From IMG/VR virus record IMGVR_UViG_3300033143_000901, positions 1 to 28,319 of that record: DNA of 28,319 nt, one strand, 5' to 3'. Below, piece by piece: positions 1,410-24,608 of this stretch. The position numbers and the translations under genes were made by a program. Each line of letters begins with the position of its first letter. The stretch's first letter is position 1. Source of the stretch: a virus. The notes under the pieces are model-generated. The model ran no database searches. It was not told where the DNA came from and saw only the letters and a program-made list of their open reading frames with translations.

Positions 1410-4400
1410 ATGATTGAATTCGGTGCATCAATAAAGTTAGACTCAGCATCAGCAACGGAGCAAATGAGAAAGTTTGCTACCCAAGCTACGTCTGCAAGTA
1501 AAGCCTTAAAGCAATTCCAAAAAGAAACAAAAGCCACCGCACAGGGTGGTGGCGCTAATGTTTTCAGAAGTTATATAAATTCTAGTCAAAAAGCTAATCA
1601 GCAAATTTTAAAATCTATTACTCTTATTCACGACCAGAGAAAAGCTTTCTCTAAACTGAATGATGAAGAGAAACAACATATTGCAACTGCCGATAGATTG
1701 AATCAGAAGTATGATGAATCCGCTAGAGTAGAAAGAAAGCTTGTTAATATAAGAAAAGAACTTCGTATAGTAACTGCTTCTGGTTTGAAAACTCAAAAAC
1801 AAGCTGATATTATTTTTAATAGAGAAGCAGAATCTTTAAAAAGGTCTACTCGTGCATATAAAGAAAATGCTATTGCAAAAAGAAAAGTAATTGAAATAGA
1901 AAAGAGAAATACTAGAGCTTTGCACGAAGCTAGAATGGCTCACGATAAGAAATATGCTATACAGCAAAAGGTTGCCGTCGTAGATAAACAATTAACCTTA
2001 TTGCTTAAAAATAAAATTATAAGCCAAAAACAGTATAACCGATTATTAACAGAGACTAGAATAAAAACAAAATTATTAGTTAACGAGAATCATAAGCTTA
2101 TATCTACTCAACAGAGAATGATTAAACTAGCTAGAGCAGTTAGTGTAGCTTCAAGAATACTTTTAGGTATTTATGCTGCCGTTAGAGCAGTAAGAATGTT
2201 TGTAGATTTTGAAAAGACAGCAGAAGCGGTAAAACTATTAGACCAAAAACTTACATTTTTAACTGGCGATTCTGGAGCATATAAAAAATTATTTGCTATG
2301 ACTCAAGAAGTTGGTGTCAAAATGGAATCGGCAAATAAAATCATAACTCGTTTTGCTGTTGTAACGAATAGAGCATTTAGCATTGAAACTATGGCTGAGT
2401 GGTCAGGTACACTTATCAAAAGTGCACGAGCTACTGGTACAAGCACCCAAGAAATGACCGGTGCTTTAATTCAGATTACTCAGGCTATGTCTGCTGGCCG
2501 ATTAATGGGTGATGAGTATCGTTCTGTTACAGAAAATTTACCTTTGCTTACAGTAGCTTTAAGAGATATATTTGGCAGAAGCACGTCATCATTAAAAGAG
2601 CTTTCTTCTCAAGGTCTAATTACTAATGAAGTGATGATTGAAGCATTCGGAAGAACTAAAGAATTATTACAAGGATTTCCAGATTCTACAGATACGATAG
2701 AAGCTGCAATGGGAAGAATGTCTTCATCATGGGATGATTTAATAGCTCATATATCTAATACTAATTGGGCTAAAAACGTTGCAAATAATCTTTCTAATAT
2801 TTTTATTGGCATTAAAGAGCTTTCTGTAGGAGATGAACTATTAGTAGCAGAAACGGCATTGCGTAAATTAAATAAAGAAATATTTAAAACTGAATCATTA
2901 TTAAGAAGCAATAAGAAAGATAGTTCAAATGGTTTCTTTAAGTCTATGGTGATAGAAGATGCAGAAAAATCTTTGATATTGCTAAACAAACAATATGCGG
3001 AAACAAAAGAAAATATATTAGTCATAAAAGGTATTTCAAAAGGCCAACTTGCTGAGAAAGCTGCCGATAAACTTCTTCAAGATATACGTAAACAAAATGA
3101 AGAATATAAACAGCAACAAATAACTTTACAGTTTATAGATAAACTGAACCGTGGTAAATCTATTTTTACTATAGAACAAAATGCTTTACTCGAAAGAAAT
3201 ATTTTACTTCAAAAACAAGATTTATTCAATAGAGGCGAAGCTGGTGGAATAAACCCAGAACAATTTTTTGATTTAGCAGATACTATTGATAGCAATAAAC
3301 AAACAGCAATTGATAAAGTTATTCAAAAGCAAATCGATTCTGAGTTAAGATTGAAAGGTTTTTCTACTAAAAATAATATTGAAAAAATTGAAGAAGAGTT
3401 AAAAGCTAGTGGTAAAATTGTAGCTATAAGAAAAAAATTAATCAAAGATATTAAAACAGTAGAATCTGCCGCAGAAGCAAGAAAACTTGGTTTGAGAAAA
3501 GGTCAAAACAAAGACCAGTTAGACGATACTACATCAGAAAAATCTAAAAGGTTAATAGATTCTCTAAAAGCTAAAGAGCTTAAAGATATAAGCGATCATA
3601 TTAATCTTATAACTTCTGGTATAAATAGCGTTGGTGCAGCGGCAGAAGCTAATACTGCTAAATTGAATGGCGATATTACTGCCGCCTTAGGATTTGATAA
3701 ATTATCTATACTGGCAAAATATGAGAAGAAACTAGAAGCATTAAATGTTAAAATAAAACAGCTTGGTGATTCAAATGTATTCCTAAAAAATACTGGTAAG
3801 GAATTAAATGAATATCGGAAAGAGCAAATAGAGTTACTTACGAAAGAAAAAGATGCTTTAATATTCAAAAGGGATGAAGATTTTGATTCTAAACTTGAAG
3901 GAAAGTTTGATGCCGGTGCTGCTGCTGTAAGAGTTTATAGAGATGAAGTAATAGCTTTAACCGCAGCAAAAGATAGATTAAATCTTTCTGAGTTTGAACA
4001 TAATAGACAGTTATTATTGCTGACTCATAATATGGAAAACCAAGTAAATCAGTCTAAAGCTTTAAGAGGCGAGCTTACTGGTTTTGAGCAAACTATGCTT
4101 GGTATGAACAAAGGAATGAATGATTTTGCCGATAGTGCAAAAACTGCATTTGAAACTGTTGCAGAATCTACTGATAGAATGCTTGAAGGTATGGTCGACG
4201 CAATATTGATAGGTGGTCAAGCAGGTCAAGATTCGTTCAGAAAGATGACTGAATCAATTCTAAAAGATTTAGAGCGTATGATAATAAAAGCTTTATTACT
4301 TAAAGCTATCAATGCAACTTTAGGATTGTTTGGTGGTAATGCAAGTGGTATATCAGGAGTTTTTGCAGGCTCTCAACAAGATAGTATGCTCGCTGCTCAA

Positions 4401-4781
4401 AATTCTGGTTTTGCTAAAGGTGGCGTTCAATCTGGAGCAGGAATATCCGCATATTCCAATACAGTAGTAAATAAACCAACTATATTCCCATTCGCTAAAG
4501 GTACTGGTTTAATGGGAGAGGATGGTGAAGAAGCTATTATGCCGTTAACAAGATTACCTAATGGTAATTTAGGAGTTGGCACTGTAAATGGTTCTGGACG
4601 TTCTGGCGATAATAACGTTACAATATCGGTTAGAATAGATAATGATGGAAAAGCAGAACAAAAAACCGAAAGCTCTGAAAATGATGGTTTTGATTTGGGT
4701 AACGTATTGGCTGGTGCGGTCAATGAACAATTGATAAAAGAAATGAGACCGGGTGGAATATTGAATAGGAGAGGTAGATAA
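1410..4781 (+). CDS. Tail tape measure protein, gpH-like
   Basis: This 1123-residue protein sets tail length and is ejected into the cell envelope during infection. Residues about 1-240 are long charged helices rich in Lys, Gln and Ala, likely coiled coil. A hydrophobic helix (ASRILLGIYAAVRAVRMFV) follows near 245-262. Residues about 270-450 match the N-terminal tape-measure domain (LTFLTGDSGAYKKLF, SAGRLMGDEYRSVTENLP, MSSSWDDLI). More coiled coil follows, then a second hydrophobic patch near 960-990. The last 120 residues resemble the lambda gpH C-terminus: FAKGGV, then PTIFPFAKGTGLMGEDGEEAIMPL. At the roughly 0.15 nm per residue known for siphoviruses, the tail would be near 170 nm. The stop overlaps the next start as TAATG. 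Confidence 0.95.
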   Translation: MIEFGASIKLDSASATEQMRKFATQATSASKALKQFQKETKATAQGGGANVFRSYINSSQKANQQILKSITLIHDQRKAFSKLNDEEKQHIATADRLNQKYDESARVERKLVNIRKELRIVTASGLKTQKQADIIFNREAESLKRSTRAYKENAIAKRKVIEIEKRNTRALHEARMAHDKKYAIQQKVAVVDKQLTLLLKNKIISQKQYNRLLTETRIKTKLLVNENHKLISTQQRMIKLARAVSVASRILLGIYAAVRAVRMFVDFEKTAEAVKLLDQKLTFLTGDSGAYKKLFAMTQEVGVKMESANKIITRFAVVTNRAFSIETMAEWSGTLIKSARATGTSTQEMTGALIQITQAMSAGRLMGDEYRSVTENLPLLTVALRDIFGRSTSSLKELSSQGLITNEVMIEAFGRTKELLQGFPDSTDTIEAAMGRMSSSWDDLIAHISNTNWAKNVANNLSNIFIGIKELSVGDELLVAETALRKLNKEIFKTESLLRSNKKDSSNGFFKSMVIEDAEKSLILLNKQYAETKENILVIKGISKGQLAEKAADKLLQDIRKQNEEYKQQQITLQFIDKLNRGKSIFTIEQNALLERNILLQKQDLFNRGEAGGINPEQFFDLADTIDSNKQTAIDKVIQKQIDSELRLKGFSTKNNIEKIEEELKASGKIVAIRKKLIKDIKTVESAAEARKLGLRKGQNKDQLDDTTSEKSKRLIDSLKAKELKDISDHINLITSGINSVGAAAEANTAKLNGDITAALGFDKLSILAKYEKKLEALNVKIKQLGDSNVFLKNTGKELNEYRKEQIELLTKEKDALIFKRDEDFDSKLEGKFDAGAAAVRVYRDEVIALTAAKDRLNLSEFEHNRQLLLLTHNMENQVNQSKALRGELTGFEQTMLGMNKGMNDFADSAKTAFETVAESTDRMLEGMVDAILIGGQAGQDSFRKMTESILKDLERMIIKALLLKAINATLGLFGGNASGISGVFAGSQQDSMLAAQNSGFAKGGVQSGAGISAYSNTVVNKPTIFPFAKGTGLMGEDGEEAIMPLTRLPNGNLGVGTVNGSGRSGDNNVTISVRIDNDGKAEQKTESSENDGFDLGNVLAGAVNEQLIKEMRPGGILNRRGR

Positions 4782-5116
4782 TGGCTACTTTTACTCACAA
4801 GCCAAGCTATTCATCTAGCATTAACGTTAAGCCTAAAATATTAGAAGCAAAATTTGGTGATGGTTATGAACAAGCAATTGATGACGGCATAAACAATAAA
4901 CCTAGAGCCTATGCTTTACAGTTTAATAATTTAAACTCTACAAACGGTGATGCGATTGAAACGTTTTTTGATATAAATAATACTGCGACAACCCCATTTG
5001 ATTGGACTCCTCCAAATGGCTCTGCTGGGCGGTTTAAGTGTAGAAGTCATTCAAGAGTTTTTACATCTGGTTTAGCTTCAAATATATCTTGTAGTTTTGA
5101 AGAGGTATTCTTTTAA
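4781..5116 (+). CDS. Minor tail protein, gpM-like
   Basis: This 111-residue protein matches the phage minor tail protein family of lambda gpM, a distal tail ring component that joins the tube to the tip. Recognisable stretches are FGDGYEQAIDDGIN near residues 25-38, a central LNSTNGDAIETFFD, and the family pattern PFDWTPPNGSAGRFKC followed by a C-terminal SCSFEEVF. Length is normal for the family. The start codon shares one base with the tape measure stop and its own stop shares one base with the next start (TAATG), so expression is probably by translational coupling. Confidence 0.93.
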   Translation: MATFTHKPSYSSSINVKPKILEAKFGDGYEQAIDDGINNKPRAYALQFNNLNSTNGDAIETFFDINNTATTPFDWTPPNGSAGRFKCRSHSRVFTSGLASNISCSFEEVFF

Positions 5117-5811
5117 TGTCAATTTCAAATGATGTACAAGAGTTATCACCCGGTGCAATAATACATTTTGTTGAAATTGATTTAACATCGTTAGGCGATA
5201 ACATTTATAGATTTCATAATGGTACTAATGAATTAAAAACTGCGGTAATATGGCAAGGAAATACATACACTCAATTCCCTGTTGAGCTTACAGGATTTGA
5301 AACTAGCACTCAAGGTTCGCTTAACAGACCATTGCTAAAAATTGCTAATGTTAGTGGTTTGATTGTTTCTTTGTTAAAAGGTCTTGATGATTTAGTTGGC
5401 GGTAAAGTAACAAGAAAAAGAACAATGGTTAAATATCTTGATGCTGTAAATTTTATTGGCGGAACTAATCCTACAGCAGACCCAGCCGTTTATTTTCAAG
5501 ATGATATATACTTCATAGATAGGAAAGTTGCAGAAAATAAAGTTTTCGTTGAGTTTGAACTTATATCTTCACTAGATTTGAATGGTATAAAACTTCCTCG
5601 TAGACAGATAATACAAAATTCTTGCACTTGGATTTATAGGTCTGGTGAATGTACTTATGCAGGTGGCGCTGTTGCTGATGTGAATGATAATCCTACATCT
5701 GACCCTGATTTAGACGTCTGTGGTAAAAGACTTTCTAGCTGCCAATTAAGATTTGGAACTATTGCAGTTTTACCTTATGGTGGTTTTCCCGGCACAGGAC
5801 TATTAAGTTAA
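5116..5811 (+). CDS. Minor tail protein, gpL-like, with four-cysteine cluster site
   Basis: This 231-residue protein corresponds to lambda gpL, a tail tip protein whose C-terminal domain binds an iron-sulfur cluster through four cysteines. The same arrangement is visible: Cys170 and Cys179 in SCTWIYRSGEC, Cys202 in DVCGKR and Cys209 in SSCQLRFG. It ends in LPYGGFPG, also typical. The N-terminal half (NDVQELSPGAIIHFVEIDL, VELTGFETSTQGSLNRP) fits the family. Metal binding is inferred from the lambda protein. It overlaps its neighbours by one base on each side. Confidence 0.94.
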   Translation: MSISNDVQELSPGAIIHFVEIDLTSLGDNIYRFHNGTNELKTAVIWQGNTYTQFPVELTGFETSTQGSLNRPLLKIANVSGLIVSLLKGLDDLVGGKVTRKRTMVKYLDAVNFIGGTNPTADPAVYFQDDIYFIDRKVAENKVFVEFELISSLDLNGIKLPRRQIIQNSCTWIYRSGECTYAGGAVADVNDNPTSDPDLDVCGKRLSSCQLRFGTIAVLPYGGFPGTGLLS

Positions 5812-6527
5812 TGAAAGATGCAATAAAACAAGCAATAGAACATGCAAAATCAAAATGCCCAGAAGAAACTTGTGGTTTGATTGGCGTTGTGAAAGGTAAA
5901 ATAAAATATGTTGAATGTGAAAATGTTTCTGATGAAAAAGAAAAATATTTTATTATGTCCGCAATTGACTATGCTAAAGCCGAAGATAGTATGGAAATTA
6001 CGTATATAGTGCATTCGCATCCTAATATTAATCCTGAACCTTCACAAGCTGACCTAGTAGCCATAGAAAAAGGTGTGTTACCTTGGGTAATAGTTAATCC
6101 TAGAACCTCACAGCATACTATAACTAAGCCTAGTGGCTATAAAGCTCCTATGGTTGGTAGAGAATTTTCGTTTGGTATCCTCGATTGTTATAGCATTATA
6201 AAAGACCATTACGAATCAGTATTGGGTATAGACATGCCTGACCCAATTAGAACAGATAAATTTTGGGAGAGAGGCGAAAATTTATATGTAGATAATTTTG
6301 AAAAGGCTGGATTTAAAAGAGTTACTTTTGATAGTGTTCGCGACCTTAAAATTAATGATGTTATTTTGATAATGGCATCGTCATCAATACCAAATCATGC
6401 AGCAGTTTATCTTGGCGATGGTAAAATAATACATCATGTACAAGGTAGACTCAGCAGCATAGATATGTATGGTGGTTATTGGCTAAAACATACTTGGGGC
6501 ATTCTACGCCATAAGGATTTATTATGA
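5811..6527 (+). CDS. Tail assembly protein, gpK-like, JAMM peptidase plus NlpC/P60 domain
   Basis: This 238-residue protein has the two-domain plan of lambda gpK. Residues about 1-105 form an MPN/JAMM metalloprotease fold: CPEETCGLIG with Glu18/19, then HSHPNINPEPSQAD giving His68, His70, Ser78 and Asp81. Residues about 118-238 form an NlpC/P60 cysteine-peptidase domain with LDCYSII (Cys126) and PNHAAVYLGDGKIIHH (His196, second His 208/209). All expected catalytic and metal residues appear present. In the family the enzyme acts in tip assembly and may cut peptidoglycan during entry. Its stop overlaps the next start by four bases (ATGA). Confidence 0.94.
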   Translation: MKDAIKQAIEHAKSKCPEETCGLIGVVKGKIKYVECENVSDEKEKYFIMSAIDYAKAEDSMEITYIVHSHPNINPEPSQADLVAIEKGVLPWVIVNPRTSQHTITKPSGYKAPMVGREFSFGILDCYSIIKDHYESVLGIDMPDPIRTDKFWERGENLYVDNFEKAGFKRVTFDSVRDLKINDVILIMASSSIPNHAAVYLGDGKIIHHVQGRLSSIDMYGGYWLKHTWGILRHKDLL

Positions 6528-7117
6528 AAACTATATTGCTTTATGGAGCACTTGGTAAAAAGTTTGGTAAAAAACATACCTTTGATGTTAAAGACCCGGC
6601 AGAGGCTGTAAGAGCATTATCTGCTGTTATTGATGGTTTTAAAAATTATATGATTGATGATAAAGATACTGGTTATAAAATTTTTATAGGCACCGAAGAT
6701 ATATACATGGGTGAATTACATAATCCAATATCTGATAATGAATTTATTAGGATAGTTCCTATTATTTCTGGCGCAGGTAATAAAGGAAAAATAGTTGTTG
6801 GCGTAATACTTATTGCTATAGCTAGTTATTATTCAGGTGGTGCAGCAACAGAAGGAGCTACTACCGCAGTAGCAGAGGCCGGTATTTTCACAGCATCTAC
6901 TGTTGCGCAAATAGGTACTGTCCTTGTTTTACAAGGAATATCTGGTTTGATAATGGATTCCATGATTGAAGAACCTGAATTAGCAGACGATAATCCAAGT
7001 TATGTTTTTGATGGTATTGTAAATACGACTAGACAAGGTAACGCAGTTCCTGTAGGATATGGTAGGTTAAGAATTGGTTCACAAGTTATAAGTGCAGGAT
7101 TAACCGCATATGATTAA
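6524..7117 (+). CDS. Tail assembly protein, gpI-like
   Basis: This 197-residue protein belongs to the lambda gpI family needed for tail tip assembly and absent from mature lambda virions. The N-terminal 85 residues have a ubiquitin-like pattern (ILLYGALGKKFGKKHTFDV, PAEAVRALSAVIDGF). A glycine/alanine-rich hydrophobic region follows (GKIVVGVILIAIASYYSGG, then VAQIGTVLVLQGISGL). The end carries the family motif PVGYGRLRIGSQVISAGL. The start overlaps the K-like gene by four bases and the end overlaps the J-like gene by eight, as in lambda-type tail clusters. Confidence 0.92.
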   Translation: MKTILLYGALGKKFGKKHTFDVKDPAEAVRALSAVIDGFKNYMIDDKDTGYKIFIGTEDIYMGELHNPISDNEFIRIVPIISGAGNKGKIVVGVILIAIASYYSGGAATEGATTAVAEAGIFTASTVAQIGTVLVLQGISGLIMDSMIEEPELADDNPSYVFDGIVNTTRQGNAVPVGYGRLRIGSQVISAGLTAYD

Positions 7118-10100
7118 AAAAGATAATATTCAAATATCAGGTTTTGGTGGTGATAAAGGTGGCAGCGGACCTGTAGAATCACCAAATAGTTTAATATCGA
7201 ATCAGTATGCTCAAATAGTTGATTTGTTATGTGAAGGTGAAATTGAAGGTTTGGTAAATGGTGAACAATCAATTTATATTGATGCAACGCCATTACGTAA
7301 CTCTGATTTAAGTTATAATTTTGAAGGCGTTTTTGTCGATTGGAGGAATGGAACACAATCTCAATCTCCACTTATAGGTAACGATAATATTAGTTCTGAG
7401 GTTTCTGTTGGCGTTTTGATAAATCAATCAACCCCTATTATAAGACGGATAACTGATGCAGAACTTGATTCAATAAATGTAACGATATCTACTCCTAGAT
7501 TTACTGTTCAAGATACAAGTTCTGGAAATCTATCCGGTTCTTCTGTAAATTATCAAATTGAGTTACAATCTGATGGTGGCGGGTATGTTCTTGTAGATGA
7601 CTTGTTTATCACTGGTAAAGCAATAACGACATTTAAAAGAAGCACAAACGTTATCCTTGCTGGTTCTCCACCTTGGGATATAAGAATTACAAGGATTACA
7701 GAAGACGCACCAAATTCATCAATAAGTAATGAGATTTTCTTTAGTTCATATACCAAAATAATACATACTAAATTAAACTATCCTAATAGTGCATTGGTTG
7801 GTATTAGAATTAATGCTAAACAATTTAAGTCTATACCAAGTAGAGGTTACGATGTAAAATTATTAAAAATAAAAATACCTTCTAACTATGACCCTTTAAC
7901 TAGGATTTATACTGGTATATGGGATGGTACATTTATCGTTGCTTGGACTGATAATCCTGCTTGGTGTTTTTACGATCTTGTGACGAATGATAGATATGGT
8001 CTTGGGAAATTTGTAGACATTTCACTTACTGATAAATGGGCTTTATACGAAATAGCGCAATACTGTGATGAAGAAGTTAATAGTGGTTTTCTCGATGATT
8101 TGTTTAATCCTATATTAGAACCTAGATTTACATGTAACTTATATCTACAAAAAAGAAGTGAAGCTTATAGAGTTGTAAGAGATATGGCTTCAATCTTTAG
8201 GGCAATGATTTTTTGGAGTTCAAACGGTATAAGCGTTGTACAAGATAAACCAGAACAAGTTTTTTCTCAGTTTACAAATGCATCTGTTATAAATGGAACA
8301 TTTAACTATGAAGGTTCTTCATCGAGAGTTAGGCATACTACAGCAGTTATAACTTGGAATGACCCGGGCGATGCTTATAAACAAAAGTTAGAATACATAG
8401 AAGATGTAAACGGAATAGCAAAATTTGGTATAAATGAACTGCAAACTGTTGCTATTGGCTGTACCTCAAGAGGACAGGCACACAGACTAGGCAAATGGAT
8501 GTTATATGCTGAGAATGTAGAAACAGAGGTTATAAGCTTTAAGATTGGGTTAGAAGGTACTCAGCTTAGACCGGGAGTAATAATAAGAACTATTGATTCT
8601 AATCGAGCTGGTGCACGATATGGTGGTAGAATAAAGTCTGTATCTGGAACAGTTGTTGTTTTAGATACTGCAATTCAATTAGATTTCGGAACTGATTATA
8701 CAATAAGTTTTGTTCTTCCAGATGGAACCATATCCGATAAAACAATAACTACTTCAAAACCAGCAAACACTGATACTATTGATATAGATTCAGTTTTTTC
8801 CACAGACCCTATTGTTAATTCTGTTTGGGTCGTTTCTTCTTTGGATTTATCACCAGAAGAATGGCGAGTAATAAATGTAAAAGAAGATAGTGATGGTTTG
8901 TATTCAGTATCAGCGTTAGAATACAATTCATCTAAATATTCATTTACAGAAGATGGACTTGAGTTAGAAGAAAAACAATCAACTATATGGGATAATGTAT
9001 CAGAAGCGGCTTCTGGTCTTATATATGAAGAAAGTTTATATCAGATAAACTTTAAGACTTTTGGTACTAGAATACATCTTTCTTGGGATGGTGATATAAC
9101 ATCTACTAGATACCAATTAAGATGGCGTAGAGATAATGATAATTATAATTTTGCTCAGACAAATACTAATAGCATTGAATTATCTGACGTTGGATATGGT
9201 AACTTTGATTTTCAGGTTATTGCATATAATGCATTAGGCGTACCATCTCCACCAATTGAAATATTGGCTCAACCAATTGCCGGTATAACTGCTCCACCAG
9301 AAGATGTTATAAATTTTTTAATAAACGTTGTTGATGGGGTTGGTATATTTACTTGGGATTATATTACCGATTTAGATGCAAATTTATATGAAATTAGAAA
9401 AGGTACTGTTTGGGATTCAAGCCCAGTTGTGGGAACTACTGAATTAAATACTTATTCAATATCAAATTTATCTTTAGGTAATAATGACTATATGATAAAA
9501 GCTATTGATTTAAGTGGTAATTATTCAGTTAACGAAACATCTGCTAGCGTTAATATTACACTACCTACTATAGATTCTTTAATTTATAGTTTTAGTTTTG
9601 ACGATATAACTTTCTCATGGGCTTCTACTGCTGGAACTCATACAATAGTTGGTTACGAAATAAGAGAAAATGGTACAGATTGGGATAGTGCTTCTGTTTT
9701 GACGATTGTAGAAGGGAACACTTATACTGAACCAGCCGCTTGGTCTTCAAGAACTATAAGAATAAAAGCTATAGACGCTGCTGGTAATTATAGCTCATTA
9801 GCGTCTAGTATAACTGTAACGCTTGTAAACCCTGTACTAAGTGGCATGGTTACTGAACATACAAGTGATTCATTTGTAATGAAATGGGAAGCAATAATTG
9901 GATCGTTAGGCGTAGCTGGTTATATAATAAAATATGATGGAGCCGATTGGGATTCCGCTGTATATGTAGGTATGATTCAAGGCACAACATATCAACAATT
10001 AGTTGATTGGGATTCAAGAAATTATAGAGTTAGAGCAATAGATTCTAGGGGAAACCTTAGTAACGAATTAACTTCATCTTCGGTTGTTGGTTCTCCTGTA

Positions 10101-12107
10101 GCTCCTGTAGTTACCCATAGTTTTACTGTAAACCAGCTAACAATAAATTTCTCTTCTATTACTAACACACTAGCGATAAAAGAATATGAAATAAGAGAAG
10201 GCAGTTCAGATTGGGATACAGCAAATTTAGTTGCAGTTATTACAGGTTCAACGTATAATGAACTTATTGATAATACATTTACTACAAAAACGTTTAGAAT
10301 AAAAGCAAAAGATACATCAAATAATTATTCGCCAGAAGCTACTGAAATAGTTGCTGTAGTGGCGCCAACTGCACCAGTTATAACAGAATCATATGATGAG
10401 AAAACGCTGAATTTATCTTGGGTTTCTACAGTAGGAACTTTTGTGATAAGTCATTATGAGGTTAGAGCAGGTGGAACGACTTGGGCTAATTCGCCGTCTT
10501 TAGGTAACTTTGATTTATCTGCATTATCTATCTTGGTAGAATGGAGTTCAAGAAACTTCTTTATAAAAGCAATTGACGATGCAGGTTTTGAAAGCCTAAC
10601 AGGCTCTAAAACTATAAACATTACTAATTCTCAGATAAGTTCTGCAACAGCGCAAATAGTTGATAATAATGTATTGCTAAAATGGGTTGTTGATTTGGGA
10701 ACTTTACCTTCCGATCAAATAGAGCTTAGAAAAGGTGATGATTATGCCACAGCAGACATCATAGGAAACAAGACAGGAACGTTTACCATAGTATTTGAAT
10801 CTATTGGTGGATTGTTTAAGTATTGGCTAACCCCTATTGATTCAGCGGGCAATAGAGGTACAGCATATTCTATAGCTGCATTGGTTAGTTCTCCACCAGA
10901 TTATAAACTAAATCAAAATTGGTTTAGTGATTTTTCTGGCGATAAAACTAATGCATTGATAAATGGGCGTACTCATTTACAGAACGGTTTTGAGCCAAGT
11001 GAAATAGATGATTGGGTGGATGATTCACCGGCAGCAGAAGCTACAATAACGCCAAGTACAGATTTTTACTCAGGCACAAATTCTGCCTTAATCACTTATT
11101 CAGGACCGAGTATTCCTGCACTAGATAAAACTATATCTTTAGAGATTCCTGAACATATAGCGGTACATAGAAATGCTGCACAGACTATAAGGGTTAATGT
11201 TAGAGCCAAACAGCCAGCGACAAATGCAACTGCACAATTTGCAATAGGCTATAATACAAATGGTGCTGGTGATAGTGGATGGCGCTCTTTTGTACCGACA
11301 ACCTCTTGGCAGTTGTTTGAATTTACATATTCCGTACCGGCTGGTTCTGGAACAGATTTCTTATCTATATTAGGAGATGTAGCTCGTTCAGGTGATGGTG
11401 TGTTGATTGATGAACTAACTATATCTGTTGACGGTAATGATGGCTCATTCTCAAACACAGGCTCTTTGCTTGCCCCCATTATACTAGGCGATACTTTTGC
11501 AGAACATTTCGATAATAACTTATGGACTACAGTAGATGCTCAGATAGCCGCAAGTTATCCTTACTACTTACAGCCTACGCCAGACCCTGCGGAATATATT
11601 GAAGTTTTTGATTATGGCACAATATTAACAAGTTCTACAAAGATAAGTGCTATCTTGAATACCAATATAATAGCCGGAACCCCAACAATAGTGGTAACAA
11701 TATCAATTAGTGACGATAATATAACATATACTGACTACGTAGGCGTTACTGAGGTCATTGACAATAACTTTAGATATGTTAAGATAACACTTGATATAGA
11801 CCAAGCTGCTGACGATAAAGGTTTATTAGAAGTATTAAGTTTAGAGGTTTTATTAGACTCAAAAAGGATAAATGATGCAGGAACAGGGACGGCAGTAAGT
11901 ACAGATACAGGTGGTACAACCGTTACATTCAATGAAAGCTTTATAGATATTGAAGATATAAGTGTTACACCGTTAGGTACAGTTTTGATTACAGCAGTTG
12001 TAGACTTTACTGATGCGCCTAACCCTACAGATTTTAAAGTTTTATTGTTTGACTCTGCCGGAGATAGATATTCTGGTGATTTTACTTGGTCAGCTAGAGG
12101 TTATTAA
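7110..12107 (+). CDS. Tip attachment / host-specificity protein, gpJ-like
   Basis: This 1665-residue protein is the central tail tip fibre, which contacts the host receptor. The N-terminus has the family opening GSGPVESPNSLISNQYAQIVDLLCEGEIEG, and the core to about residue 600 matches gpJ (LKIKIPSNYDP, NPAWCFYDLVTNDRYGLG, YRVVRDMASIFRAMIFW). Residues about 643-735 are a fibronectin-III-like domain. Six related repeats follow, about 733-1263, each with YEIR, WDS/WDT and A(I/K)D..GNYS landmarks. Residues about 1265-1455 look like a carbohydrate-binding-module-type sandwich (ISLEIPE, QTIRVNVRAKQP, SWQLFEFTYSVP). The last 200 residues (AEHFDNNLWTTVDAQI to DFTWSARGY) are a typical tip C-terminus. 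It is longer than lambda gpJ (about 1130), mostly through the repeats and the inserted sandwich. Confidence 0.94.
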   Translation: MIKKDNIQISGFGGDKGGSGPVESPNSLISNQYAQIVDLLCEGEIEGLVNGEQSIYIDATPLRNSDLSYNFEGVFVDWRNGTQSQSPLIGNDNISSEVSVGVLINQSTPIIRRITDAELDSINVTISTPRFTVQDTSSGNLSGSSVNYQIELQSDGGGYVLVDDLFITGKAITTFKRSTNVILAGSPPWDIRITRITEDAPNSSISNEIFFSSYTKIIHTKLNYPNSALVGIRINAKQFKSIPSRGYDVKLLKIKIPSNYDPLTRIYTGIWDGTFIVAWTDNPAWCFYDLVTNDRYGLGKFVDISLTDKWALYEIAQYCDEEVNSGFLDDLFNPILEPRFTCNLYLQKRSEAYRVVRDMASIFRAMIFWSSNGISVVQDKPEQVFSQFTNASVINGTFNYEGSSSRVRHTTAVITWNDPGDAYKQKLEYIEDVNGIAKFGINELQTVAIGCTSRGQAHRLGKWMLYAENVETEVISFKIGLEGTQLRPGVIIRTIDSNRAGARYGGRIKSVSGTVVVLDTAIQLDFGTDYTISFVLPDGTISDKTITTSKPANTDTIDIDSVFSTDPIVNSVWVVSSLDLSPEEWRVINVKEDSDGLYSVSALEYNSSKYSFTEDGLELEEKQSTIWDNVSEAASGLIYEESLYQINFKTFGTRIHLSWDGDITSTRYQLRWRRDNDNYNFAQTNTNSIELSDVGYGNFDFQVIAYNALGVPSPPIEILAQPIAGITAPPEDVINFLINVVDGVGIFTWDYITDLDANLYEIRKGTVWDSSPVVGTTELNTYSISNLSLGNNDYMIKAIDLSGNYSVNETSASVNITLPTIDSLIYSFSFDDITFSWASTAGTHTIVGYEIRENGTDWDSASVLTIVEGNTYTEPAAWSSRTIRIKAIDAAGNYSSLASSITVTLVNPVLSGMVTEHTSDSFVMKWEAIIGSLGVAGYIIKYDGADWDSAVYVGMIQGTTYQQLVDWDSRNYRVRAIDSRGNLSNELTSSSVVGSPVAPVVTHSFTVNQLTINFSSITNTLAIKEYEIREGSSDWDTANLVAVITGSTYNELIDNTFTTKTFRIKAKDTSNNYSPEATEIVAVVAPTAPVITESYDEKTLNLSWVSTVGTFVISHYEVRAGGTTWANSPSLGNFDLSALSILVEWSSRNFFIKAIDDAGFESLTGSKTINITNSQISSATAQIVDNNVLLKWVVDLGTLPSDQIELRKGDDYATADIIGNKTGTFTIVFESIGGLFKYWLTPIDSAGNRGTAYSIAALVSSPPDYKLNQNWFSDFSGDKTNALINGRTHLQNGFEPSEIDDWVDDSPAAEATITPSTDFYSGTNSALITYSGPSIPALDKTISLEIPEHIAVHRNAAQTIRVNVRAKQPATNATAQFAIGYNTNGAGDSGWRSFVPTTSWQLFEFTYSVPAGSGTDFLSILGDVARSGDGVLIDELTISVDGNDGSFSNTGSLLAPIILGDTFAEHFDNNLWTTVDAQIAASYPYYLQPTPDPAEYIEVFDYGTILTSSTKISAILNTNIIAGTPTIVVTISISDDNITYTDYVGVTEVIDNNFRYVKITLDIDQAADDKGLLEVLSLEVLLDSKRINDAGTGTAVSTDTGGTTVTFNESFIDIEDISVTPLGTVLITAVVDFTDAPNPTDFKVLLFDSAGDRYSGDFTWSARGY
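9307..10900 (+). repeat. Six tandem FN3-like protein repeats inside the gpJ-like gene
   Basis: Repeat landmarks (the YEIR Tyr codon or its equivalent) fall at 9387, 9654, 9921, 10185, 10455 and 10719. Spacings are 267, 267, 264, 270 and 264 bases, so the period is 88-90 residues. Most copies carry YEIR then W-D-S/T about six residues later, and end with IKAIDxxGNYS or close to it. The copies are well diverged at DNA level, so this is an old amplification and not a fresh tandem duplication. Confidence 0.8.
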
Positions 12108-12109
12108 AA

Positions 12110-13621
12110 ATGTCAGATTGGAATTTACCAACAACGGCTAGTCTATATACTGATTTAGTAAATGGATTAAAAGATAGAGATTTAGATTTAGCAACAATGT
12201 TTGCAACATTACCAACTAACCCTGTAACGAATATGGTTAGATGGGTTTCTGCATCTAATAGATTCGAGATATATAACGGAGCTTCTTGGGTAGAGCTATC
12301 TACAGCTTATGCTATAAATGTAACGTCATTAAATGGTCAAGCTGCTGCTTTTTATCAAAACGCTGGCAATTTAACTGCTGGTATTCTTTTAGCCGCAAGA
12401 TTTAATGATACATCTCATGGTTCAAGGGGAGGTGGCACTACTCATTCAGACGTAGTTGCTGCTGGTGCTTCTGGTTTTATGACAGGTGGCGACAAGACAA
12501 AACTTAATGCTATAGAAAACTCTGCTACTGCTGACCAAACTGGCGCTGAAATTAAAACTGCTTATGAAGGAGAGGTCAATGCATTTACAGACGCTTTATT
12601 TACTAAGCTTGGTGGTATCGAAACAGGTGCTACTATAGACCAAACTGGTGCGGAAATAAAAACTGCATATGAAGGAGAAGTAAATGCGTTTACTGATGCA
12701 TTGTTTACAAAACTATCTAATATAGAAACGGCAGCAACTGCTGACCAAACTGCGTCAGAGATTTTAGCTTTATTATTAACTGTTGATGGTTCAGGCAGTT
12801 TATTAGATGCAGATTTATTAGACGGTTCAAATCTTGATGCAACAGCAAATGTAAACACAGTTGTAAAACGAGATGGTAGTGCAGATATAGTTGCTCGTAG
12901 ATTTCGCTCAGAAGAAGCAACAACAAATAGCTCTATTGGGTTTATGATGACTCAAGTGAACACTGGCGCTGATAATTTCCTACGACCATCTACTCCGGCT
13001 CAGATTAGAGCAGGGTTAAACGTTGAAGATGGTTCAACTGCCGATCAAACTAAATCAGATATAGATGGTTTAAATATTGTTGCTGCTACTATAGTTAGTC
13101 AAGGTGCTTTAGCTACTAAGAATACGGTTGACACAGTTGATATTGATAATGGTGCAATAACATTACCTAAATTTGATATTGTTGCATCACTTGATTTTCA
13201 TACATTGATTGACGCAAACCCATTTGGTAATAATAATCATGGTCTTAAAATAAAAAATGAAACTGTTGCAGATAATTCTTATACAAAAAGACTTGAGATT
13301 GTATGTCCAGCAGACGGCACTTATACATTAAAAACAAGCGTTGTTGACCTTTCAGGTAGTTATGGAATTGGCGGTAAAGTTACTTATATTCAAACATATA
13401 AAAATGGAGCATTTATTGGTACAGTATTACAAAATGTAGAAAATGGCCCGACAGTATACCTTGAGGAAGATTTTACCTTTGCTAAAGGGGATTTAATACA
13501 AGCGTACATGAAAAAAGATGCGGCTAGCACAAATGGAGTTGGAAGTTTAGAATTAGGAAGCACTTTCGGAAGAGTATTTAATGTAATAATAAACTTAGGT
13601 TCACTAACAGCACAAGCTTAG
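12110..13621 (+). CDS. Tail fibre protein
   Basis: This 503-residue protein follows the tip gene by two bases and has an AGAGG site nine bases before its ATG. The N-terminus (MSDWNLPTTASLYTDLVNGLKDRD, then NMVRWVSASNRFEIYNGASW) is a common opening for short siphovirus side-fibre proteins and probably anchors to the tip. Residues about 139-220 contain a 35-residue tandem repeat (ADQTGAEIKTAYEGEVNAF). GSLLDADLLDGSNLD near 230-243 and ATKNTVDTVDIDNGAITLPKF near 335 are triple-stranded-fibre features. The C-terminal 150 residues form a beta-rich domain (TIDANPFGNNNHGLKIKNE, GTYTLKTSVVDLSG) that may be the receptor-binding head. No chaperone domain or peptidase is seen. Confidence 0.85.
   Translation: MSDWNLPTTASLYTDLVNGLKDRDLDLATMFATLPTNPVTNMVRWVSASNRFEIYNGASWVELSTAYAINVTSLNGQAAAFYQNAGNLTAGILLAARFNDTSHGSRGGGTTHSDVVAAGASGFMTGGDKTKLNAIENSATADQTGAEIKTAYEGEVNAFTDALFTKLGGIETGATIDQTGAEIKTAYEGEVNAFTDALFTKLSNIETAATADQTASEILALLLTVDGSGSLLDADLLDGSNLDATANVNTVVKRDGSADIVARRFRSEEATTNSSIGFMMTQVNTGADNFLRPSTPAQIRAGLNVEDGSTADQTKSDIDGLNIVAATIVSQGALATKNTVDTVDIDNGAITLPKFDIVASLDFHTLIDANPFGNNNHGLKIKNETVADNSYTKRLEIVCPADGTYTLKTSVVDLSGSYGIGGKVTYIQTYKNGAFIGTVLQNVENGPTVYLEEDFTFAKGDLIQAYMKKDAASTNGVGSLELGSTFGRVFNVIINLGSLTAQA
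12524..12760 (+). repeat. 35-residue tandem repeats in the tail fibre
   Basis: Unit 1 (12524-12628) and unit 2 (12629-12733) encode nearly the same 35 residues, A-T-x-D-Q-T-G-A-E-I-K-T-A-Y-E-G-E-V-N followed by AFTDALFTKL and a closing I-E-T. A third, truncated unit starts at 12734 (ATADQTASEI), and a single STADQTKSDI recurs near 13040. The two full units differ at many silent sites while the protein is almost unchanged. Confidence 0.85.
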
Positions 13622-13634
13622 GAATTTTAATAAT

Positions 13635-14240
13635 ATGATAAATACAAAAACGTATGCGATACTAGACAATAAAAAATACATAGAAACAATTACGTTTGAT
13701 AATGTTGATGGTTCTATAGAAATACCAGAAGATATACAAGAAGAAATCTGTAAATCAAAGATTGGTCACGCAGGATACAAATTTTCAAATGGTTTATTTG
13801 GTTTAGATAAAGATTATCTAAAAGATTATGGTTTGGATGACGTTGTTGTAATAGAAGAAAAAACTACTGTGGATGACAAAGCTATATTATCTTTAGATGT
13901 AAGCAATCCTGACCCAAGTGAAATAGCTTATTTTGGGAATATATGGACAAGGAAAATGTTTTTCCCAAAGAAAGGTAATTTATATGAAGGGCATAAGCAC
14001 GACCACGATCATTTGTCACTTTTGCAAAGTGGTAAAGTTCTTGTTGAAATAGAAGGTTATGAACCGAAAATATTTACTGCTCCAACTTATATTGTCGTTA
14101 GGGCAGAGCATGAACATAAAATAACTGCATTAGAAGATGAAACTTTATGGTGGTGTATACACGCAAGTAGAGACGACAATGGTGAAGTTATAGAAGTTTT
14201 TGGAAAAGATAATGACCCTGCCGATAAAAAAAATGATTGA
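13635..14240 (+). CDS. Cupin-domain protein of unknown role, behind the tail fibre
   Basis: This 201-residue protein has two parts. Residues 1-75 (KTYAILDNKKYIETITFDN, GHAGYKFSNGLFGL) resemble no enzyme I know and could be a structural or tail-associated segment. Residues about 100-180 fit a single cupin barrel: motif 1 is G114 followed by HKHDHDH (His120, 122, 124, 126) ending at KVLVEIEG, and motif 2 is APTYIVVRAEHEH (His159, His161). These histidines would bind Fe, Mn or Ni. The ribosome site (AGGA, about 11-12 bases upstream) is rather distant. It overlaps the next gene, also a likely non-heme metal protein. The reaction is unknown; a sugar- or nucleotide-binding cupin without catalysis is also possible. 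Confidence 0.6.
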   Translation: MINTKTYAILDNKKYIETITFDNVDGSIEIPEDIQEEICKSKIGHAGYKFSNGLFGLDKDYLKDYGLDDVVVIEEKTTVDDKAILSLDVSNPDPSEIAYFGNIWTRKMFFPKKGNLYEGHKHDHDHLSLLQSGKVLVEIEGYEPKIFTAPTYIVVRAEHEHKITALEDETLWWCIHASRDDNGEVIEVFGKDNDPADKKND

Positions 14241-14733
14241 AGAATCATTTACACTATTAGGTAATATAAATATAGGTAATTTTAATATTGATAAACCTGA
14301 TTGGGACGTTTATACAAAGAGACAAGAAATATTTATTGCTCATAGACATACTAAAGCTATAATGCTACGTGAAGGCGATTTGGTGTATGATGGTATTAGA
14401 TTTAGTGACCATAAATTTTTAGAAAAATATATAGAAATATTTGATTTGATTTTGAAAGAAACGGGAATAAGATTAAATCAAATATACAATGCAATATTTG
14501 TTTTGATGCCTAGCAATACAGTTATAGAAGAACATATCGATGCAGGAGTTTTATTAGAAAATTTGACTAGAGTTCATGTACCAATAGTTACGAATGATAA
14601 AGTTATGTTTACTGTTGGCGATGAAACTATAAATATGAAAGAAGGCGAGATTTGGGCTATTGATAATTTAACTAAACATAGTGTGATTAACAATGGCTCC
14701 GATAGAATTCATTTAATATTTGATTATATATAG
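14212..14733 (+). CDS. Aspartyl/asparaginyl beta-hydroxylase-like Fe(II)/2-oxoglutarate dioxygenase
   Basis: This 173-residue protein fits the AspH-like group of 2-oxoglutarate oxygenases, which hydroxylate Asp or Asn side chains or related substrates. Visible landmarks in order: EEHIDAG giving His108 and Asp110 as two iron ligands; TRVHVPIVTN (Arg120, His122), a family pattern before the core; FTVGDETINMKEGEIWAIDN; KHSVINNGSDRIHLIFDY with His156 as third iron ligand and Arg165 placed to bind 2-oxoglutarate. The first 90 residues are less conserved. I prefer the ATG at 14212, which has GGA seven bases upstream. A TTG at 14200 and an ATG at 14233 are alternatives. It overlaps the cupin gene by 29 bases. 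The substrate is unknown; a tail or host protein is conceivable. Confidence 0.75.
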   Translation: MTLPIKKMIEESFTLLGNINIGNFNIDKPDWDVYTKRQEIFIAHRHTKAIMLREGDLVYDGIRFSDHKFLEKYIEIFDLILKETGIRLNQIYNAIFVLMPSNTVIEEHIDAGVLLENLTRVHVPIVTNDKVMFTVGDETINMKEGEIWAIDNLTKHSVINNGSDRIHLIFDYI

Positions 14734-14741
14734 GTTATGAT

Positions 14742-15212
14742 ATGACTATTCATAAAACGCATTTAACTGCTGGCGATAAATATGGGATACAAGTTCCTGA
14801 AATAATAGTCATGCACGCTATGGGTGAGTATATAGCTGGTAAACATGCTGTACCATTCTTAGCAGATATTGATTTATCAGCGCATTCATTGATTGATTCA
14901 GATGGTAATAATTATCGTTGCAGAGAAGATAATGAAGTTGCCTATCATGCAGCAGGTCATAACATTAATTCTCTTGGTTTAGAAACTTTAGTTAAAGGCG
15001 ATTTTATATACTCCACATTCCTTGAAGCTATGAAAACCGAATATGTTACTGATTCACAATATACAGAAATTTTAAGACAAGTTCGTGAGTGGTTAGATTT
15101 ATGGCCTATTAAGAAAATAGTGCGCCATAGTGACCTATCACCAGAAAGAAAGGTTGACCCCGGCGTTGGGTTTCCTTGGAAAGATTTTTTAAATGATGTG
15201 GGGATGGATTAA
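14742..15212 (+). CDS. Endolysin, N-acetylmuramoyl-L-alanine amidase (Amidase_2 type)
   Basis: This 156-residue zinc amidase cuts the bond between MurNAc and the L-Ala of the stem peptide, degrading the cell wall at the end of infection. Zinc ligands are visible: His25 in IIVMHAMGEY, His129 in IVRHSDLSPERK and Asp139 in KVDPG. The family pattern SAHSLIDSDGNNYRC then VAYHAAGH lies near residues 47-74. It is a single-domain enzyme of T7-lysozyme size, with no wall-binding domain, as expected for a Gram-negative host. No signal peptide is seen, so release by a holin is expected. Its TAA shares a base with the next ATG. Confidence 0.93.
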   Translation: MTIHKTHLTAGDKYGIQVPEIIVMHAMGEYIAGKHAVPFLADIDLSAHSLIDSDGNNYRCREDNEVAYHAAGHNINSLGLETLVKGDFIYSTFLEAMKTEYVTDSQYTEILRQVREWLDLWPIKKIVRHSDLSPERKVDPGVGFPWKDFLNDVGMD

Positions 15213-16995: not shown

Positions 16996-17376
16996 ATGGG
17001 TAATCTAACGAAAGATTTTAGTTCAAGTGATTTTAAATGCCCTTGTGGTTGTGGCGAAGTTAAGATGAATAAAAAGTTTATGGAACGTCTTCAAATATTC
17101 CGTGACGTAATTGGTTTAGATATTAAGATTGCAAAAGGTGGCGGTTATATATGTAAAGAATATGCCAATAGCAAAAGTGAAGAAATGCATACAACTGGTA
17201 GAGTTGCGATGATTAAGGTTAAAGGTGGAGTCATGTTTAAAGCTGTCAATATAGCTATGAGCATTGGTTTTACTGGTATTGGAGTTAAAAACAAGAACGG
17301 GTCAGTTCAACTACACCTTGATGATATCGAAGGTTTTGCTGGAAACCAACCACGTCCTTATCTATGGACTTACTAA
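16996..17376 (+). CDS. Peptidase M15-like protein with a missing metal ligand
   Basis: This 126-residue protein resembles the short M15 D,D-/L,D-carboxypeptidase-type domains found in phage endolysins. The opening DFKCPCGCGEVKMNKKFMERLQ, the segment GGGYICKEYANSKSEEMHTTGR and the end FTGIGVKNKNGSVQLHLDD follow the family order. His65 and His107 would be two zinc ligands. The third, normally the Asp in H-x2-G-x3-D, is Met72 here (HTTGRVAMIKV). Loss of that Asp predicts weak or no peptidase activity, so the protein may bind rather than cut peptidoglycan, or the change may be recent damage. GGAG lies nine bases before the ATG. The gene ends against the convergent thyX. Confidence 0.78.
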   Translation: MGNLTKDFSSSDFKCPCGCGEVKMNKKFMERLQIFRDVIGLDIKIAKGGGYICKEYANSKSEEMHTTGRVAMIKVKGGVMFKAVNIAMSIGFTGIGVKNKNGSVQLHLDDIEGFAGNQPRPYLWTY

Positions 17377-18059
17377 TCGGCCTTCTCTAAGCCTTTCTCA
17401 AAGACTTCTACACATACAGGGTATAGAGGTCTAATTAGCTCTAAAATGGCCTGTGCATACACCCTAATTTCATATTGTGCATGAGGATGAAGCCTTTCAG
17501 ACAGGAATCTAAATAGATTATGTAGGTTCATAGTCGCAAACATATGGCTATAAGTTCCTACTGGTAAGACTGAACGGGCAATCTCTCTAGGGCAACCAAG
17601 CTCAAGCATTTTATGATAAGTGAAAAATGATGAAGAGTTTTGAACTATAATCATTTCTGCAATTGCACTAGCATGAAAATTTTGCTCATCAGTTCGCATT
17701 TGTTTGTTGTCTTTCGACTGAGTGGTAATTTGTTCTAATTCAGGAACATAAAACTCTTCTGGCAATTCCTTGTAGCGAGCTGACAACTCATTATAACTTT
17801 GAGTCCTATGTCTATGCCACTGACGGAAAACAAAGATTGGTGCTTTGATTTCAAATGATACTGTAGCAGCTTCAAATGGTGTGTTATGACCATTATTATA
17901 TAAGTAACCAATAAGTTTTTTATCACTACCTTTATCTTCGCCTGCTCTCCATTCAGCATCATAAGATACTCGAGCATTTCTGACAATTGATAAGTCACTC
18001 CCCATATGGTCTACTAATCTTATCATGCCATGATTTAATACATTAATTGCTTCGTTCAT
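17373..18059 (-). CDS. thyX: Flavin-dependent thymidylate synthase ThyX
   Basis: This 228-residue enzyme makes dTMP from dUMP with FAD, NADPH and methylene-tetrahydrofolate. The ThyX signature is complete: RHRTQSYNELSARY, with Arg83, His84, Arg85, Ser88, Glu91, Ser93 and Arg95. N-terminal RNARVSYDAEW and NNGHNTPFEAATVSFEIKAPIFVFRQW fit, as does the C-terminal substrate segment NLHNLFRFLSERLHPHAQYEIRVYA. Length is normal. It is the last gene of the leftward operon and its stop overlaps the stop of the + strand M15-like gene by four bases. A second, altered ThyX-like protein lies about 1.1 kb upstream in the same operon. Supplying dTMP fits an AT-rich phage genome. Confidence 0.97.
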   Translation of the reverse strand: MNEAINVLNHGMIRLVDHMGSDLSIVRNARVSYDAEWRAGEDKGSDKKLIGYLYNNGHNTPFEAATVSFEIKAPIFVFRQWHRHRTQSYNELSARYKELPEEFYVPELEQITTQSKDNKQMRTDEQNFHASAIAEMIIVQNSSSFFTYHKMLELGCPREIARSVLPVGTYSHMFATMNLHNLFRFLSERLHPHAQYEIRVYAQAILELIRPLYPVCVEVFEKGLEKAD

Positions 18060-18952: not shown

Positions 18953-19190
18953 TTTTCTTCTCCATCAAAGTTTTTCTTCGTTTAATTTCTCTTTTGATAT
19001 AAAATATAGATTTCTCTAAGTCTTCTATATCATCAAGTTTTAAATCTTGGTCTGAACGCCATAAATACTTAACAGCATTACCAAGATTAAAACACATATG
19101 CTCAACAACTTGAATACACTCCACACCGCTAGGGTGTGAAGTATAATGAGGTGGATTATTTACCATATCCACGTTGGTTTTGTCAGTCAT
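18945..19190 (-). CDS. DUF3310 family protein
   Basis: This 81-residue protein matches the phage family DUF3310: VNNPPHYTSHPSGVECIQVVEHM at the N-terminus, then NLGNAVKYLWRSDQD and IEDLEKSIFYIKREIKRR. It is a small helical protein common in nucleotide-metabolism clusters of phages. Its function is not known; the recurring association with MazG-like and thymidylate synthase genes, also seen here, suggests a link to nucleotide pools. It overlaps the upstream ThyX-like gene by four bases. Confidence 0.92.
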   Translation of the reverse strand: MTDKTNVDMVNNPPHYTSHPSGVECIQVVEHMCFNLGNAVKYLWRSDQDLKLDDIEDLEKSIFYIKREIKRRKTLMEKKNG

Positions 19191-20086
19191 ATTGCGTCAA
19201 ACTCTTCAAGTAATTTATCACGCATTACAATGTAGTCTTGACCACCAACCATTTCTTGACGCATCTTCTCTCTCATAAACCAATCAAGACGATATTCATA
19301 AATATCATTCTTAGGTTCAGGTCTATAGAAGTTACTGCTGCGTCCACCTTTAGATGTTTCAATTGCAAACAAATCAGGTGAGCGCAAATCAATCTTTGTT
19401 TTAAGTTGTGGGAATCGTTTCACAACTTCTGTCCACAACTTGATAGCAAAGATGTTCATTGTTTCAGGTTCAATTGATTCATCTTTACGTTGACCTACAA
19501 ATGCTATGATAGCTTTTAAATCACCAGATACATAGTAGTAATTAGAAGTACATCTTGGCATAAACGTACGAGCATCAAGAATAGGCATATCAGGATCGTC
19601 AGTCACATCTGCATATAACTGTTTAGCGTCAGTCATAAGTTTTGCAAATCTTGACTGATATTTATCGTTACCTTGTATAGAAGGTTTTACTAATACAGCA
19701 TCATTGCGCATATCCCTGTCACCTGTACCTTGTGCAGAAAATGACAAAGTTCTATGGCGAATTAAGTGACATACATCAACCAAATCAATACCTTCAATAA
19801 TGAACGTCATTTTGATTGTTTCTAATGCAGTAGGCAAGATATAACCAGCAAATAAATCATCAACTACTTTTGCTCGCTCAACTACAGTAAAATTAGTTTT
19901 TGGTTTATCTTCCCAAGTTCCCGAAGCGAACTCAGGTATATAACTCATAAGCTCTGCATCACTTGGACAGTCAAGCATTCTGACGTTAACCGCATCTAAA
20001 GCATTTAAAAATGCAGTTTGTGGTTCTTGACCAATTTTCAGATTTACGAGTAATGGTCTTTCTTCAAGATTATCATTCTGTGGCAT
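19187..20086 (-). CDS. Divergent ThyX-family protein, altered signature
   Basis: This 299-residue protein has a ThyX-type fold signature that departs from true ThyX at catalytic positions. It keeps VCHLIRHRTLSFSAQ (Arg110, His111, Arg112, Ser115). Where ThyX has Glu, Ser and Arg in the rest of the motif there are Ala118, Gly120 and Gly122, followed by DRDMRND. The C-terminal half also follows ThyX order (DARTFMPRCTSNYYYVSGDLKAIIAFVGQR, then PETMNIFAIKLW), but the usual N..R....F..R....AQ.EIR set is changed. The N- and C-terminal extensions make it about 70 residues longer than the canonical ThyX here. With a complete ThyX in the same operon, a different substrate or reaction (for example another 5-substituted pyrimidine) is plausible, but this is inference. 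Confidence 0.8.
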   Translation of the reverse strand: MPQNDNLEERPLLVNLKIGQEPQTAFLNALDAVNVRMLDCPSDAELMSYIPEFASGTWEDKPKTNFTVVERAKVVDDLFAGYILPTALETIKMTFIIEGIDLVDVCHLIRHRTLSFSAQGTGDRDMRNDAVLVKPSIQGNDKYQSRFAKLMTDAKQLYADVTDDPDMPILDARTFMPRCTSNYYYVSGDLKAIIAFVGQRKDESIEPETMNIFAIKLWTEVVKRFPQLKTKIDLRSPDLFAIETSKGGRSSNFYRPEPKNDIYEYRLDWFMREKMRQEMVGGQDYIVMRDKLLEEFDAI

Positions 20087-24171: not shown

Positions 24172-24608
24172 TTTTGTTCAATCCTCAAACATGGTACGCC
24201 GTATTCCCCAAACACTGCACATATACTACCAACGTCATCAAGAGCAAAACTAATAACGTCTCTGTTAAGTGCAATATATTTTCTTTTAAATTCTAAATCT
24301 TCTTCACTTGCAGATTGCTTCATTATTAAAACGTCAAACTTAACTTCATATTTCCTTAACCACTCAGCTACCATGTTGCGATATCTTTCATGTTTGGCAG
24401 TAAGAATAACGATTGTGTGACCTTTCTTAGATAATGAATCAATAAACATTTTTACATTAACGTTTATATCATCATCAACAAAACTTTCTTGAAACTGTTT
24501 AATGTATTCTTTATTTTTATATTTTTCTGGAACTTTATTATATTCTAAAAGCCACATGCGATGTCTAGCATCAGATATCGTATTTTCTAAATCTACAACT
24601 ACTATCAT
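24168..24608 (-). CDS. HAD-superfamily phosphatase-like protein, altered motif I
   Basis: This 146-residue protein follows the HAD layout: motif I VVVDLENTISDARHR (Asp6, Thr10), motif II VILTAKHERYR (Thr), motif III FKRKY (Lys) and motif IV SFALDDV (Asp-Asp), ending with a short beta-strand close (VPCLRIEQ). The overall plan recalls the phosphatase half of phage polynucleotide kinase/phosphatases. The usual DxDxT reads D-L-E-N-T: the second Asp, the general acid/base, is Glu8. That could slow or change the reaction. It overlaps both neighbours by four bases. The substrate is unknown; nucleotide or DNA-end dephosphorylation are candidates. Confidence 0.78.
   Translation of the reverse strand: MIVVVDLENTISDARHRMWLLEYNKVPEKYKNKEYIKQFQESFVDDDINVNVKMFIDSLSKKGHTIVILTAKHERYRNMVAEWLRKYEVKFDVLIMKQSASEEDLEFKRKYIALNRDVISFALDDVGSICAVFGEYGVPCLRIEQK

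Follow-up and report, generated by a model that had tools for sequence, protein, structure and literature searches.

The window analysed in this work is the whole of the virus record IMGVR_UViG_3300033143_000901 (28,319 bases), which has the gene content of a lambda-like siphophage, including minor tail proteins, a J-type tip and a fibre. Between the fibre and the lysis genes we have found two overlapping genes, here called gene 1 and gene 2, in the following arrangement:

7110 to 12107, plus strand: J-type tail tip / host specificity protein (Pfam)
12110 to 13621, plus strand: tail fibre gene (PHROG 21412, 2e-40), ending 13 nt before gene 1
13635 to 14240, plus strand: gene 1, a phage cupin of 201 aa with an ATG start (PHROG, fold, relatives)
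14212 to 14733, plus strand: gene 2, a PF05118 Fe(II)/2OG hydroxylase of 173 aa from the ATG at 14212 (Pfam, motifs, model)
14212 to 14240, plus strand: overlap of gene 1 and gene 2, 29 nt when the ATG at 14212 is taken as start (sequence)
14742 to 15212, plus strand: Amidase_2 endolysin, first gene of the lysis cassette (Pfam)

An overlapping pair between the fibre and lysis genes had been proposed before any database search (the sequence-only reading), spanning 13635-14733, and these coordinates proved to be exact. Gene 2 has three in-frame starts, TTG at 14200 (the one in the ORF listing), ATG at 14212 and ATG at 14233; a GGAAAAGAT-like ribosome-binding stretch, read from the sequence, precedes the ATG at 14212, and the 29-nt overlap probably reflects translational coupling of the two genes. 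The neighbours of the pair in the window are tail, fibre and lysis genes with no metabolic genes adjoining it, and the host-type genes (ThyX, methyltransferase) stand away from it. The idea, also raised earlier, that these are auxiliary metabolic genes found no support in its classical form, as no recognisable host pathway lies beside the pair.

Gene 1 had been read as a cupin, and this identification holds, even though Pfam alone is insufficient for it: gene 1 misses the Cupin_2 cut-off (E=0.041, 14 bits against 27.2) and its relatives fall below it too. We consider it a cupin because it matches the cupins of PHROG 12032 and PHROG 24280 (2e-7 and 7e-4, respectively), because its model contains a barrel for which Foldseek returns single cupins (2gu9, HP0902, and KdgF), and because it is 49-59% identical to a large phage cupin family. 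The cupin domain occupies approximately aa 95-190 and is confidently modelled as a C-terminal barrel (mostly pLDDT 76-95), and the N-terminal ~95 aa lie outside recognised domains and are poorly modelled. The candidate metal ligands are H120-x-H122-x2-D125-H126 and H159/H161. At the usual place of the Glu of the canonical motif 1 (HxHx3-4E), this HxHx2DH motif has His/Asp, and the His of the second motif is present.

The second gene had been credited with a full H-x-D...H triad and a 2OG-binding Arg, and all of these residues were found (H108-x-D110, H156, and R165). Its match to PF05118 (Asp_Arg_Hydrox) has E=9e-16 and scores 58.5 bits, the cut-off being 22.6. H108, H156, and R165 are invariant in both alignments examined (A2 and A7), and D110 is invariant in A7 and absent from one distant row of A2. 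The AlphaFold (AF2) model (pLDDT 81.8, pTM 0.81) presents a double-stranded beta-helix oxygenase fold, and its best Foldseek matches are all of the PF05118 type: 4p7w (E=1.4e-8), 1e5r, 7v4f, and AspH (6yyu). According to this, gene 2 resembles the PF05118 hydroxylases, including the oxygenase domain of AspH, in profile match, H-x-D...H plus Arg motif and barrel fold. However, it is only 14-19% identical to the solved members and differs from them in having neither TPR nor membrane part, in being paired with a cupin and in being fused with a cupin in other phages. Its nearest solved relatives are the free-proline hydroxylases 4p7w (L-proline cis-4-hydroxylase) and 1e5r (proline 3-hydroxylase) and the nucleoside-antibiotic hydroxylase 7v4f; its best structural matches are free amino-acid hydroxylases, and the peptidyl Asp/Asn beta-hydroxylase proper acts on EGF-like peptides. 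The sole NCBIfam match, a weak one, is also to a nonproteinogenic amino acid hydroxylase.

A scan of single proteins with gene 1 recovered one locus, and the family was opened by profile scanning: a profile made of gene 1 and one relative retrieved 195 relatives in IMG/VR, and a second cupin profile retrieved 193, with 37 records new to the sample. Two pattern scans, which divergent copies may escape, found no relatives of the cupin family in 84,980 bacterial and archaeal GTDB genomes. Using tblastn, the cupins of gene 1, L022, and L241 had no match in cultured phages, and those of L005 and L209 gave weak matches only. Among the loci with at least 2.5 kb of upstream sequence, 61 of 64 have a fibre-cluster gene at most four genes upstream of the cupin; position -1 is usually taken by a small protein of the PHROG 7759 type, and the downstream side often carries lysis genes, lysozyme for instance. 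Purifying selection acts on the stand-alone cupins (dN/dS ~0.07), and HxHx2DH is present in 75/75 aligned copies, partly by construction as one search pattern spanned the motif. One locus (L206, 3740-4494) carries two cupins of the family in tandem with a 4-nt overlap.

PHROG 12032 and PHROG 24280 belong to the same broad cupin family as gene 1 and the N-terminus of the fusion described below. Unlike gene 1, the cultured members that we examined have lost metal ligands (most are gone in Dickeya phage Amaethon and Vibrio phage 1.036.O) and lie among P22/T7-like virion genes; when PF05118 was looked for in cultured phages with this wider family, none was found. These two groups go under the names 'short tail fiber protein' and 'tail fiber adhesin' although they are cupins, and the naming should be checked.

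The order seen in the window recurs. A scan with gene 2 as a single protein found three loci and one with a narrower hydroxylase alignment found four; L022 and L209 are two more phages in which a PF05118 gene lies directly downstream of the cupin and overlaps it (by 11 and 17 nt, respectively). L022, with a GC content of 51% against 34% in the window, presents a fibre gene, two other genes, a cupin with an N-terminal extension, the PF05118 gene and then small genes of no assigned function. The N-terminal 95 aa of gene 1 do not align with this extension, and the idea that the two match was dropped. In the window, L022, and L209 the pair has only structural and lysis genes beside it, with no biosynthetic partner. 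In L241 a probable oxygenase (+1) comes after the cupin, and PF05118 after that (+2). Reading the sequence of this record at 2273-7594, we noticed a carbamoyltransferase-like gene, the cupin, two or three oxygenase-like genes and an HAD-like gene, placed between fibre-like and neck-like genes.

The two domains are also found as a single gene:

L026, 2439 to 3323: fused cupin-PF05118 gene

This fusion, of 294 aa, is present in 34 contigs (L026, L027, and relatives) at 86-100% identity. Its cupin half is ~24% identical to gene 1 and belongs to the same PHROG families, and purifying selection acts on both parts of the protein (dN/dS 0.05 in the cupin, 0.15 in the 2OG domain). In 27/27 contigs with a readable next gene, a tail-fibre gene starts exactly 40 nt downstream of the fusion; this constant spacing is in part due to common descent because the 27 contigs represent one lineage. 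The fibre genes behind it share a conserved N-terminus and differ widely in length, from ~295 to 1154 aa, some being truncated where the contig ends. Because the same order recurs in L022 and L209 and as a fusion, the pair in the window is more than a chance arrangement. A weak tree groups L022 with L209 (85/86) and the fused L026 with L092 (100/99), and does not place the window.

Oxygenases of other 2OG families also lie beside the cupin. PF13640 genes follow it in L036/L061 and in L203, PF13640 is found at +2 behind another oxygenase-like gene in L081 and at -1 in L218, and PF13759 and then PF13640 come after it in L230. Viral prolyl 4-hydroxylases of the PF13640 family, whose action on collagen-like tail fibres has been suggested and whose role was called cryptic (PMC9301287), are 2OG enzymes near fibres, some of which follow the cupin family, although they belong to a different 2OG family from gene 2. 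Behind the fibres of L100 (3902-14565) a pair of sulfotransferase-like genes is found together with a series of P4H-like 2OG genes, and this record has two PF05118 matches.

Records with PF05118 or PF13640 amounted to 19 of the 117 cupin records (8/80, then 11/37) and to 0/42 controls (Fisher p=0.0019), the records being non-independent and the controls picked through a tail gene of the window with unmatched coverage of the fibre region. A test of position within the cupin records is safer, because a fibre region is missing from some of the controls: 2OG genes occupy 8 of the 78 slots at +1/+2 of the cupin against 5 of 321 elsewhere within six genes (39 lineages, p=0.0009), at +1 in five lineages (the window included) and at +2 in three. 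About four fifths of the cupin lineages have no detected 2OG gene directly downstream, and therefore the cupin can act alone. The cupin profile was also run against 46 virus or phage records, both controls and carriers of PF05118, and matched none of them; PF05118 can thus dispense with the cupin.

Phage PF05118 genes are already known. P-HM1 and P-HM2 carry asparaginyl beta-hydroxylases (PMC3037559), PF05118 belongs to the core of pelagimyophages (PMC7029224), and ORF8 of Limnohabitans phage DC33 is a PF05118 protein (PMC12195039); they are of the same family as gene 2 and, in the accessible text of these three sources, have no assigned function and, unlike the pair in the window, no described cupin partner or fibre linkage. 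In several cultured phages the stand-alone gene is not tied to fibres: in DC33 (L006, PQ492659.1) it lies by the terminase and an acetyltransferase, in PfAn1 by an acetyltransferase and internal virion proteins, in Itty13 in the replication region, and in a cyanophage near phoH. The conserved co-occurrence with the fibre that the sequence-only reading had proposed to check thus stands for the cupin (61/64) and for the fused gene (27/27), but not for these stand-alone genes. In two podovirus-like genomes PF05118 is followed by a GNAT-type acetyltransferase of PHROG 1249 (L006, 7755-8827; L007, 5722-6786). The DC33 record is labelled Inoviridae, yet its 39 kb encode a large terminase as well as a head-tail adaptor, and its taxonomy line looks wrong.

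Literature searches for a cupin-2OG pair found no description of one, the nearest being a remark on the jumbo cyanophage S-SSM6a, in which a 10-gene cluster includes 2OGFeDO, cupin-like DSBH, carbamoyltransferase, and HAD genes and was read by Iyer and colleagues as serving metabolite or capsule decoration (PMC7824862). The window likewise joins a 2OG oxygenase and a cupin in one phage locus, but unlike that biosynthetic cluster it holds the pair only, at the fibre-lysis boundary; L241 looks like the S-SSM6a kind, having a carbamoyltransferase-like gene next to its cupin. Neither the fibre-linked pair nor the fusion was found described in the literature searched.

We tentatively favour, at somewhat less than an even chance, that the two overlapping genes form an oxidation module that is late and linked to the tail fibre. 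In this view gene 2 would be a catalytically active member of the PF05118 superfamily of Fe(II)/2-oxoglutarate hydroxylases, its catalysis being predicted, and gene 1 a phage-specific metal-binding cupin working with it, presumably in physical contact, either as a partner for docking or for presenting the substrate or as a further enzyme acting on the substrate of gene 2. The likeliest substrate would be a residue on the fibre or on another tail-tip protein, which would be hydroxylated inside the host cell while virions are assembled if the genes are, as we infer, expressed late. The families, intact motifs, overlap, recurrence, fusion, fibre linkage and purifying selection are the steps that can be read directly from the sequences. 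A functional link between the cupin and the 2OG oxygenase is quite probable, as the overlap, the fusion and the positional statistics support this association, and the linkage of the module to fibres is well supported. The substrate is the least certain step: a fibre or tip protein is our best single guess, which may well be wrong. Hydroxylation of the fibre by the module is plausible judging from these sequences, and it can reasonably be proposed rather than concluded because PF05118 in other phages is not tied to fibres. The favoured module also has to contend with the many cupin lineages that have no 2OG neighbour, with the loss of ligands in cultured relatives of the cupin, and with nearest solved enzymes that act on free proline or in a nucleoside-antibiotic pathway.

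A more ambitious version of the module, which we regard as possible though doubtful, is a dedicated phage system in which the cupin, itself specific to viruses, would bind the fibre or its small partner protein and present it to the oxygenases. These would be interchangeable (PF05118, PF13640, or PF13759) and would hydroxylate the receptor-binding fibre or tip of the phage itself, a side-chain chemistry of fibres that is not described for tailed phages in the literature searched.

The main rival, which we consider rather unlikely, is that the cupin and the 2OG enzyme act on a free amino acid, nucleotide or sugar and not on a protein residue. Such a small molecule could be made by the phage or the host and could, for example, decorate a surface polysaccharide or fibre-bound glycans. 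The free-proline and nucleoside-antibiotic hydroxylases nearest to the fold of gene 2 and its only NCBIfam match, weak as it is, point in this direction, as do the resemblance of gene 1 to KdgF and other small-molecule cupins, the carbamoyltransferase-like and HAD-like genes beside cupin and PF05118 in L241 (compare the cyanophage cluster of PMC7824862), and the GNAT-type acetyltransferase adjoining PF05118 in DC33 and PfAn1. However, the lack of a biosynthetic partner around the pair in the window, L022, and L209 and the locking of the fusion to a fibre gene argue against it.

Less likely again, the cupin could be a non-catalytic protein of fibre assembly or structure (a chaperone or small tail component), with the 2OG gene as a mere passenger that has no relation to it and was inserted where the fibre-lysis boundary tolerates insertions. 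This would account for the many cupin lineages without any 2OG gene, for the PHROGs labels of the wider family as tail fiber adhesin and short tail fiber, and for the loss of metal ligands in some relatives, but hardly for two domains fused in 34 contigs under purifying selection, a gene overlap in three phages or the clustering of several 2OG families at +1/+2; moreover, the metal ligands are intact in the cupin subfamily of the window, a result partly conditioned by the search pattern. Finally, it is very improbable that the hydroxylase alters a host protein or surface lipid and in this way the receptor or defence state, since, although other phages also have PF05118 among their early or replication genes, a late position is compatible with a host target and LpxO-type lipid hydroxylases offer a parallel (a lead only), the late structural position, the fibre linkage and the make-up of gene 2 (173 aa, with no evident membrane segment when read by eye) speak against it.

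Returning to the module that we favour, 2OG oxygenases are frequent in aquatic phages, where their presence is unexplained; the roles proposed in the accessible text of the reports on them are DNA repair, nitrogen sensing and modification of tail collagen (PMC9146016, PMC3037559, PMC9301287). A recurrent cupin-2OG cassette and a fibre-locked fusion narrow the guess to one place and to a compact, expressible enzyme, and a pair that recurs, or is fused, beside fibres in other uncultured phages suggests that the part of the virion which binds the host is associated with an as yet undescribed step of chemical modification. If fibres are indeed modified, this would represent a chemical layer of control of host recognition that is invisible to genome-based host prediction.

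Two further features of the window were observed away from the pair. This small phage genome has two ThyX (PF02511) genes, at 17373-18059 (5.5e-51) and 19187-20086 (1.6e-15), the second of which is longer and diverged; and a 302-aa gene at 24605-25513 strongly matches PHROG 4828 (3e-74), a family with no assigned function, and has an oxidoreductase-like motif at its start.
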